Source of the DNA: Saprospiraceae bacterium
GTDB taxonomy: Bacteria > Bacteroidota > Bacteroidia > Chitinophagales > Saprospiraceae
Assembly: GCA_022448955.1 (NCBI GenBank)
Contig: JAKVCU010000005.1
Coordinates: 1 to 64,000 of the forward strand
Direction of reading: 5' to 3'
DNA length: 64,000 bases
Every line of letters starts with the position of its first letter. Positions within the stretch are counted from its first letter, which is position 1. The translations under genes and the position numbers were made by a program. Under the pieces are notes generated by a model. That model was not told the DNA's origin. It ran no database searches and was given only the letters and a program-made list of their open reading frames with translations. Of this stretch, positions 46,751 to 52,822 are shown piece after piece.

Positions 46751-46806
46751 AAACAAATTTGTTTACATTTTTGAAATAATTTGTTTACATTTGTAGACAA
46801 ATTTGT
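46751..46806 (+). promoter_or_regulatory. Operator-like repeat array
   Basis: Just upstream of the 46815 gene lie a direct repeat AATTTGTTTACATTT (46756-46770 and 46778-46792), two ACAAATTTGT palindromes (46753-46762 and 46797-46806) and the inverted repeat ATTTGT-AG-ACAAAT (46789-46802). TACATTTGTA (46786-46795) also fits the TACAnnTGTA box of CopY/BlaI-type repressors. Several binding sites are implied; which regulator uses them is unknown. Confidence 0.5.
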
Positions 46807-46814
46807 TTTTTTTT

Positions 46815-47147
46815 ATGCAGCATGACATTATCGTAAGTGACGAAAATCCTAATGGAACGATCATCAATCAGGTTTACCTTTCCTTTGATCAACCAATTGT
46901 TACTATTGAACAACTGATCAAAATAAGAGTAGAGCAGGAAATTGGAGCATATGATACTTCCGCAGAAGCTTCTACCGATAATATTGCCCTTCGACAAGGT
47001 CCCTCCAACAGATCACGCCATATCGTATTCAGTTCTTTTCGAGAAAATGGTTTCTTCATCCGAGTGAATGGCAAAATCGTCCACGAGCTAGATCAAAAGA
47101 TTAGTATCCATCCTAATACACAAATTTGCTTTGTACAAATGAAATAG
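46815..47147 (+). CDS. Uncharacterised small protein
   Basis: From the ATG at 46815 (MQHDIIVSDENPNGTIINQV...) the product is 110 residues, without signal peptide or membrane segment. The sequence VTIEQLIKIRVEQEIGAYDTS and FRENGFFIRVNGKIVHELDQKISIHPNTQICFVQMK resembles small bacterial proteins whose C-terminus reads VFLRLVPLVGG (weak recollection), which have a possible beta-grasp fold; the terminal GG is missing here. It is flanked by a dense operator-like array upstream and by the sigma-54 enhancer boxes of hsp20 downstream. Function unknown. Confidence 0.6.
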   Translation: MQHDIIVSDENPNGTIINQVYLSFDQPIVTIEQLIKIRVEQEIGAYDTSAEASTDNIALRQGPSNRSRHIVFSSFRENGFFIRVNGKIVHELDQKISIHPNTQICFVQMK

Positions 47148-47190
47148 TGACACTTTGTCATCATTATTTTGTTTTTTTGACAAAATGTCA
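47148..47190 (+). promoter_or_regulatory. Paired palindromes, likely sigma-54 activator sites
   Basis: TGACACTTTGTCA (47148-47160) and TGACAAAATGTCA (47178-47190) are two TGACA-N3-TGTCA palindromes with starts exactly 30 bp apart, about three helical turns. They lie at roughly -96 and -66 from the predicted hsp20 transcription start, where enhancer-binding activators of sigma-54 promoters bind. Confidence 0.7.
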
Positions 47191-47223
47191 TTACTTTCAA
47201 CTAATTTCACATCTCCTTTGTGC

Positions 47224-47240
47224 TTGGCACAGCAATTGCA
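47224..47240 (+). promoter_or_regulatory. Sigma-54 (RpoN) promoter of hsp20
   Basis: TTGGCAC-AGCAA-TTGCA matches the sigma-54 consensus TTGGCAC-N5-TTGCA at every fixed position, with GG at -24 and GC at -12. It is 78 bp before the Hsp20 ATG on the same strand. Confidence 0.85.
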
Positions 47241-47317
47241 ATATGGAAGTTGTTATTTGAAACAAGAAGGTGTAAAAATTATGCCTTGCTAATAGGTTAA
47301 ATAAAAAACTTCCAATA

Positions 47318-47734
47318 ATGAAAGTAGTAAATGTAAAACCAGGTTTCGTCCATAAATCTTCCATTGATCAAATTTTTGAAGATTTCTTCCAGCATAATCC
47401 ATCTAGCAAGATTTATCGGCCTGCAGCAAATATTATTGATCAAGAAAAAGCATTTGTACTTGAACTGGCTATTCCTGGTATCACAAAAGAAGACTTAAAT
47501 ATTGCTATTGAAAAGAATATACTCGTCATCAAATCGGATGTAAAAGAAAATGCAGTAGAAAAAGGACGTTATCTAAAAAAAGAATTTGGAGTGCGCAATT
47601 TTGAACGCAAATTCCAGCTAAAAGAAAAGGTCCTTACAGATGCAATAGAGGCAAAATTAGAGAACGGAATACTAGTTTTAGTTATCCCAAAAGCAGCGGA
47701 GGTCTACACTAAACACTTAATCGAAATTGCTTAG
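47318..47734 (+). CDS. Small heat-shock protein Hsp20
   Basis: This 138-residue cytoplasmic protein has an alpha-crystallin domain from about residue 36 (YRPAANIIDQEKAFVLELAIPGITKEDLNIAIEKNILVIKSDV ... FERKFQLKEKVLTDAIEAKLENGILVLVIPKAA). The usual A-x-x-x-n-G-v-L motif is LENGILVLVIP. It holds unfolding proteins. It has a consensus sigma-54 promoter and two upstream palindromes, so it should be activated by an NtrC-family regulator rather than by a sigma-32 homologue. Confidence 0.93.
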   Translation: MKVVNVKPGFVHKSSIDQIFEDFFQHNPSSKIYRPAANIIDQEKAFVLELAIPGITKEDLNIAIEKNILVIKSDVKENAVEKGRYLKKEFGVRNFERKFQLKEKVLTDAIEAKLENGILVLVIPKAAEVYTKHLIEIA

Positions 47735-51940: not shown

Positions 51941-52822
51941 TTGAAACAAGAACAGAGCACAATTAAAACGGATGTAATTAAGGTATTATCTTGGGGTTTA
52001 CTTTTTTTATTTTTTTCTACTTGTTCCGAATTAGACGTAGAAAAAAAATCACCTGTGCCAAAACAAGGTGGTCCTTTCACTACCAATCATTATTTTGGAG
52101 CTATTCTTGATTCCGCAAGAGTACAAGGTGCAATTCTTATCTATGCAGCTAAGGATCATACTTTTTATTCCAACGATTTCGAATGGTCAAAACAAGGCAG
52201 TTTACCTGCATCTACTTTTAAAATTCCCAACTCAATTATTGGGCTAGAAACAGGTGTTGTTGAAGGTGATAGTACTATTTTCAAATGGGATGGTCAACCG
52301 AAAGCATTAAAAGTTTGGGAACAAGATCTTCGATTTAGAGAAGCCTTTCATTATTCTTGTGTGCCCTGCTATCAGCAAGTTGCTAGAGGAGTCGGATATG
52401 AGCGCATGATAGCTTACATTCAAAAATTAGGCTATGGTAACATCCAATTTGATTCAAGCCAAATTGATCGCTTCTGGCTAGAAGGCGAATCAAAAATCAC
52501 TCCTTTCCAGCAAATTGACTTTCTCCAACGATTTTATAATGCTGAACTACCTATCAAAGAAAGGACATACTCCATTATGAAAAAATTAATGGTAATGGAA
52601 GAAAATGAGCAATTCAAAATAAGTGGTAAAACCGGATGGGCTATAAGAAATGGTAACAATAGAGGCTGGTTTGTCGGCTACGTAGAAACGAATGACCAGG
52701 TGTACTTCTTTGCTTCTAATATCATTCCAAAAGAGCAGTTTAACATGAACTTTTTTCCTGAAATCCGGAAAGAAATCACATACAAGGCGCTTCGATCACT
52801 CAATATTATCCCTAAGACTTAA
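51941..52822 (+). CDS. Class D (OXA-type) beta-lactamase-like lipoprotein
   Basis: This 293-residue protein starts at a TTG (MKQEQSTIKTDVIKVLSWGL...) and has a lipobox (LLFLFFSTCSEL). The class D hallmarks are PASTFKIPNS with nucleophile Ser91 and Lys94, HYSCVPCYQQVAR in place of the usual YSxV, FWLEGESKITPFQQIDFLQRF and the KTGW motif with Lys230. The YSC variant is unusual. The family hydrolyses beta-lactams or acts as a penicillin-binding protein/sensor (as in BlaR). It lies 25 bp after the small membrane protein, apparently in the same unit. Native, as no mobile element adjoins it. Whether it degrades drugs is unknown. Confidence 0.85.
   Translation: MKQEQSTIKTDVIKVLSWGLLFLFFSTCSELDVEKKSPVPKQGGPFTTNHYFGAILDSARVQGAILIYAAKDHTFYSNDFEWSKQGSLPASTFKIPNSIIGLETGVVEGDSTIFKWDGQPKALKVWEQDLRFREAFHYSCVPCYQQVARGVGYERMIAYIQKLGYGNIQFDSSQIDRFWLEGESKITPFQQIDFLQRFYNAELPIKERTYSIMKKLMVMEENEQFKISGKTGWAIRNGNNRGWFVGYVETNDQVYFFASNIIPKEQFNMNFFPEIRKEITYKALRSLNIIPKT

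Follow-up and report, generated by a model that had tools for sequence, protein, structure and literature searches.

A sigma-54 promoter with helically phased boxes before hsp20 and EBP3 as its candidate activator in a Saprospiraceae bacterium

The promoter region of hsp20

The question raised by the DNA upstream of the small heat-shock gene hsp20 of this Saprospiraceae bacterium is whether a sigma-54 promoter and two palindromic boxes lying there constitute a true regulatory switch or a chance motif, and which activator may read them. The window, i.e., the whole stretch of 64,000 nucleotides analysed, is designated contig C176 in a genome of 6.4 Mb and 230 contigs, and hsp20 (47318..47734, forward strand, with the ATG at 47318) encodes in it a protein of 138 aa matching PF00011 (E 1e-17); a contig search with Hsp20 returned a distant rhizobial relative as the sole match. 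Direct reading of the sequence confirmed the perfect sigma-54 promoter TTGGCAC-N5-TTGCA claimed in the initial annotation, namely the -24/-12 element TTGGCACAGCAATTGCA (TTGGCAC-AGCAA-TTGCA) at 47224..47240 of the forward strand, which matches the consensus TGGCAY-N5-TTGCW exactly at 47225-47240 and is the single occurrence of exact TGGCAC-N5-TTGCA in the whole window. Two activator boxes precede it on the same strand: box 1, TGACACTTTGTCA (47148..47160), an exact TGACA-N3-TGTCA palindrome 76 bp upstream of the promoter TTGG, and box 2, TGACAAAATGTCA (47178..47190), TGACA-N3-TGTCA, 46 bp upstream of it, with a spacing of 30 bp between their starts and no other exact copies in the window. With the transcription start of hsp20 predicted near 47251, the box centres fall at about -67 and -97, in agreement with the annotated palindromes 30 bp apart at about -66 and -96. 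The boxes were also said to begin at the stop codon of the upstream gene, and box 1 does start directly after the TAG (47145-47147) of a gene (46815..47147, forward strand) whose 110-aa product belongs to no known family. Ahead of this gene, at 46760-46815 of the forward strand, a repeated AATTTGTTTACATTT is found together with a TAnnTTTG vegetative-type motif at 46786. Further along the window (51941-52822, forward strand) there is a class D (OXA-type) beta-lactamase homologue of 293 aa, scoring 269.7 bits against the NCBIfam general class D cut-off of 250 and far under all the named OXA families shown.

It is probable that hsp20 is activated through the sigma-54 promoter and the two boxes by EBP3, one of the sigma-54 activators encoded in the genome, as a member of a chaperone and protease regulon. 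RNA polymerase with sigma-54 would transcribe hsp20 from 47224-47240, dimers of the activator would bind both palindromes on one face of the helix, and the bound activator would form an AAA+ hexamer that opens the promoter complex. The hsp20 promoter would share this control with those of hsp20-2/clpB, groESL, dnaK and lon. EBP3, with neither a receiver nor a sensor domain, would presumably be regulated either through its abundance or by a partner bound to it, as PspA regulates PspF. We infer the binding of EBP3 to the boxes, protein-folding stress as the signal and the mode of switching the activator on, and heat is suggested as a signal because of the genes controlled.

The regulon and its helical geometry

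The list of regulon members was built from pattern searches and gene searches of the genome. The pattern TTGGCAY-N5-TTGCH occurs exactly at 11 sites in 6.4 Mb, 8 of them inside open reading frames; the remaining 3 are intergenic and stand before hsp20, dnaK and lon, with an exact box near every one of them. The genome-wide search for TGACA-N3-TGTCA, proposed in the initial annotation, returned 8 places, two before hsp20, one before dnaK and one before lon, so that 4 of 8 adjoin one of the 3 exact sigma-54 sites located between genes (about 3e-14 by a binomial estimate). The box alone is not enriched in the genome (8 places versus 5 for the reversed control pattern), several exact copies fall in coding sequence (loci L016, L018 and L022), and one is intergenic, without a sigma-54 site (L021); boxes alone were therefore rejected as a regulon marker because their count is near chance. 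Sigma-54 sites with one mismatch were likewise set aside, nearly all of the 19 loci examined being within coding sequence. The groES promoter, TTGGCATACTCTATGCT, is slightly degenerate and lies 74 bp before the ATG, with boxes 24 and 86 bp upstream of it and a third, at 69 bp, out of phase. On contig C225, the second Hsp20 gene (hsp20-2), followed by clpB, has the slightly degenerate promoter ATGGCACAGCAATTGCA and boxes 56 and 87 bp from it, which fit the lattice described below; this promoter was inspected only after the spacing rule had been formed. The lon box of this genome is placed 50 bp downstream of the promoter. The sigma-54 promoters before groESL, dnaK, lon and clpB, by which the Bacteroidota quality-control regulon is defined, were thus all found in this genome. 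A second ClpB-like gene of 920 aa (locus L280, contig C165) has no recognisable sigma-54 site upstream.

For conservation, Hsp20 loci were drawn from 40 related genomes and groES loci from 25. Among the hsp20 upstream regions, a sigma-54 match was found in 18/36 versus 0.24 in dinucleotide shuffles, and a full box in 11/36 versus 0.10; for groES the corresponding values were 18/27 versus 0.27 and 11/27 versus 0.05. Half of the regions upstream of hsp20 in relatives are without the sigma-54 pattern, some of them belonging to second genes of operons. The hsp20 box pairs are 31 bp apart in 11 of 19 cases, with overlapping chance matches included in the 19. Across about 25 related genera, the box-to-promoter distances gather near 24, 35, 45, 56, 66, 76, 87 and 97 bp, and the Rayleigh test at a period of 10.5 gives R=0.88 for hsp20 (n=28, p 4e-10) and R=0.80 for groES (n=32, p 1e-9), with R=0.79 on the 10.5-bp lattice for lon/dnaK (n=7) and an identical phase for hsp20, groES and lon/dnaK. 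At periods of 9.5 and 11.5, the hsp20 value drops to 0.4 and 0.3, respectively. Because related sequences are not independent, a stricter test was made with one box per hsp20 promoter, and it retained R=0.94 (n=15, p 1.6e-6); with the period left free, 0 of 2000 random distance sets were as good. Such varied distances on one lattice are hard to explain by simple descent, and the lattice is the strongest sign of a putative protein touching the promoter complex; dimers that would be stacked on one face with a three-turn spacing fit an enhancer-binding protein. In Flavobacterium-like groES loci (L259, L260, L266, L267 and L271), the in-phase box overlaps an apparent terminator hairpin, TGCCAGC...GCTGGCA followed by T's, where a single element may serve two roles; the boxes in these regions are weaker evidence because of this overlap.

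The near-chance frequency of the box pattern alone would suit a chance resemblance, with hsp20 driven by an ordinary promoter, but this reading is rendered very improbable by the conservation, the phasing and the regulon-wide pattern, and no TAnnTTTG vegetative motif was found upstream of hsp20. The layout of promoter and boxes looks like a real, class-wide chaperone switch rather than a chance motif.

RpoN, the five activators and EBP3

The initial annotation also suggested looking for rpoN, the lack of which would speak against its reading, and for activators of the NtrC type. One copy of rpoN was found (L015), with all three sigma-54 domains, AID, CBD and DBD, matched, so the reading stands on this point; a strong match to the sigma-54 activator domain is, moreover, found in five proteins, EBP1 to EBP5. 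EBP1 (L001, contig C221) consists of a receiver and AAA+ domain with no DNA-binding end; EBP2 and EBP4 both have receiver, AAA+ and Fis domains and each adjoins an NtrY-like kinase; EBP3 (contig C188, 11783-13075) is a protein of 431 aa with AAA+ and Fis domains and no receiver; and EBP5 (L005, contig C159), beside an unknown gene of 256 aa, has a receiver and AAA+ domain and a C-terminus without a Pfam HTH match. The scanned flanks of the genes of all five contain no box. Given rpoN, the NtrC-type activators and the conserved, helically phased layout, control by RpoN and an enhancer-binding activator at phased boxes, as first suggested, appears well supported.

EBP3 is the most likely candidate for the box-binding activator. 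It matches the sigma-54 activator AAA+ domain PF00158 (E 7e-68) and the Fis HTH PF02954 (E 2e-14), carries the GAFTGA loop in its own sequence and has no match to the receiver PF00072, which sets it apart from the NtrC response regulators. It was found in 16 of 16 genomes examined, with 52-81% identity in relatives, and its recognition region LGISERTLYRKIK is invariant in the aligned set. The gene order miaB-EBP3-lptE-TPR-secG-groES-groEL is found in 5 relatives, with an extra gene in some (the names besides miaB, lptE, EBP3 and groES were assigned by reading translations), and 16 of 23 other genomes of the class have EBP3 on the groES strand, no more than 4 kb upstream of that gene; in this genome it does not adjoin groESL. 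An AlphaFold model of EBP3, poor except for the C-terminal HTH (mean pLDDT 51.5), was not used.

The assignment of the boxes to EBP3 proceeds by elimination: in the relatives G003, G004, G005, G006 and G008, EBP1 and EBP3 are the only activators, and EBP1 has there no DNA-binding end, which would leave EBP3 as the reader of boxes that are clear at lon (G003) and hsp20 (G004, G006) and are also present at groES. This elimination works solely via the relatives because the genome under study has EBP2 and EBP4, with Fis domains, and EBP5, with an unclear C-terminus. Placed beside their kinases, EBP2 or EBP4 might read the boxes at the sigma-54 promoter as two-component activators, and hsp20 would then answer an envelope or nutrient signal, a possibility for which the heat-shock gene lonD of Myxococcus xanthus offers a parallel, being activated by HsfA/HsfB, a two-component pair (Ueki and Inouye 2002, as cited in PMC9548883). 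It is nevertheless unlikely, for G003, G004 and G006, without EBP2 or EBP4 homologues, retain the boxes at lon or hsp20.

The Fis end of EBP1, a widespread response-regulator activator, is missing in this family (G001-G006, G008 and G010, besides this genome) and retained in G025-G028, which represent further families of the order. A frameshift was rejected as the cause, for no HTH is found downstream in any frame and the loss is common to the relatives. The presence of EBP1 in nearly all family genomes examined, with its DNA-binding end lost, would suit another arrangement, in which a separate factor, a repressor or an architectural protein, occupies the boxes and EBP1, being HTH-less, opens the promoter independently of any enhancer; HTH-less activators have been noted in Bacteroidetes (PMC3372290). 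The strict phasing to the promoter over 24-97 bp fits instead a factor contacting the polymerase, and boxes or half-boxes are also conserved in families whose EBP1 retains the HTH, so that this arrangement is rated somewhat less likely still than a two-component reader, and activation by EBP3 is kept as the preferred reading.

Known systems and the distribution of HrcA

The activator PspF has no receiver domain, combines an AAA+ domain with a Fis-type DNA-binding end and serves a stress response. EBP3 has the same receiver-less architecture but is longer than PspF, has chaperone genes as putative targets and falls below the NCBIfam PspF cut-offs (267 bits for TIGR02974, with a cut-off of 443.55). 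The HsfA/HsfB regulator of lonD is of the NtrC type and likewise activates a heat-shock protease gene, as a two-component system, whereas EBP3 is without a receiver. The ibpB gene of E. coli reportedly (Kuczynska-Wisnik, 2001) has sigma-32 and sigma-54 promoters; it resembles hsp20 in that sigma-54 serves a gene for a small heat-shock protein, but the sigma-54 promoter is there a secondary one beside sigma-32, and we know of no comparable enhancer pair.

The initial annotation considered the control of hsp20 to be unusual and to define a new circuit, which was overstated, since hsp20 appears as a member of a regulon whose starts have already been mapped (PMC9723704) and which has been predicted across Bacteroidota (PMC12316311). 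In Flavobacterium psychrophilum, sigma-54 starts were mapped for groES-groEL, lon, dnaK, grpE-dnaJ, htpG and clpB, and three activators were noted, none of which is assigned to these promoters in the available part of PMC9723704. Its SM4 (sigma-54) quality-control cluster likewise places sigma-54 before groESL, lon, dnaK and clpB, but hsp20 is not among the Table 2 entries consulted, and no activator, enhancer or box phasing is given in that part of the source. In a survey of 2025, predicted sigma-54 promoters were enriched for IbpA/Hsp20, GroES, GroEL, DnaK, DnaJ, GrpE and ATP-dependent proteases in Bacteroidota and Planctomycetota, the regulon being drawn from promoter matrices alone, with no activator or enhancer assigned (PMC12316311). 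The association of sigma-54 with heat-shock genes is therefore of a known kind, as F. psychrophilum, the Bacteroidota survey and the Myxococcus lonD precede it; new here, within the literature searchable, are the putative enhancer and the way it is phased, together with a candidate for its activator.

To judge by the papers found, little is understood of how Bacteroidota that lack HrcA control their heat-shock genes. The analysis supplies a named candidate activator, the DNA site it probably recognises and a strict rule of geometry, and the distances along the helical lattice would lend themselves to the study of the short-range approach of sigma-54 activators to the promoter. No match to PF01628 (hrcA) was found in this genome or in any of 24 genomes of the class, while HrcA is present in 55 of 99 genomes sampled across the phylum (0/24 in this class). 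It is suggested tentatively, at slightly less than even chances, that EBP3 may be the class-wide master switch of the chaperone and protease regulon in place of HrcA, reading TGNCA-N3-TGNCA boxes on one helix face over about 10 turns and switched on by a partner such as a chaperone titrated by unfolded proteins. By hand count, a long EBP3 match is present in 39 of the 44 genomes without HrcA versus 6 of 55 with it (Fisher p about 1e-15, uncorrected for shared ancestry); for 4 of the 39 the alignment is partial, and close relatives of these genomes have complete ones. The CIRCE repeat is present at many of the groES loci read from outside the class; at the groES loci of several families without HrcA there is a sigma-54 site.
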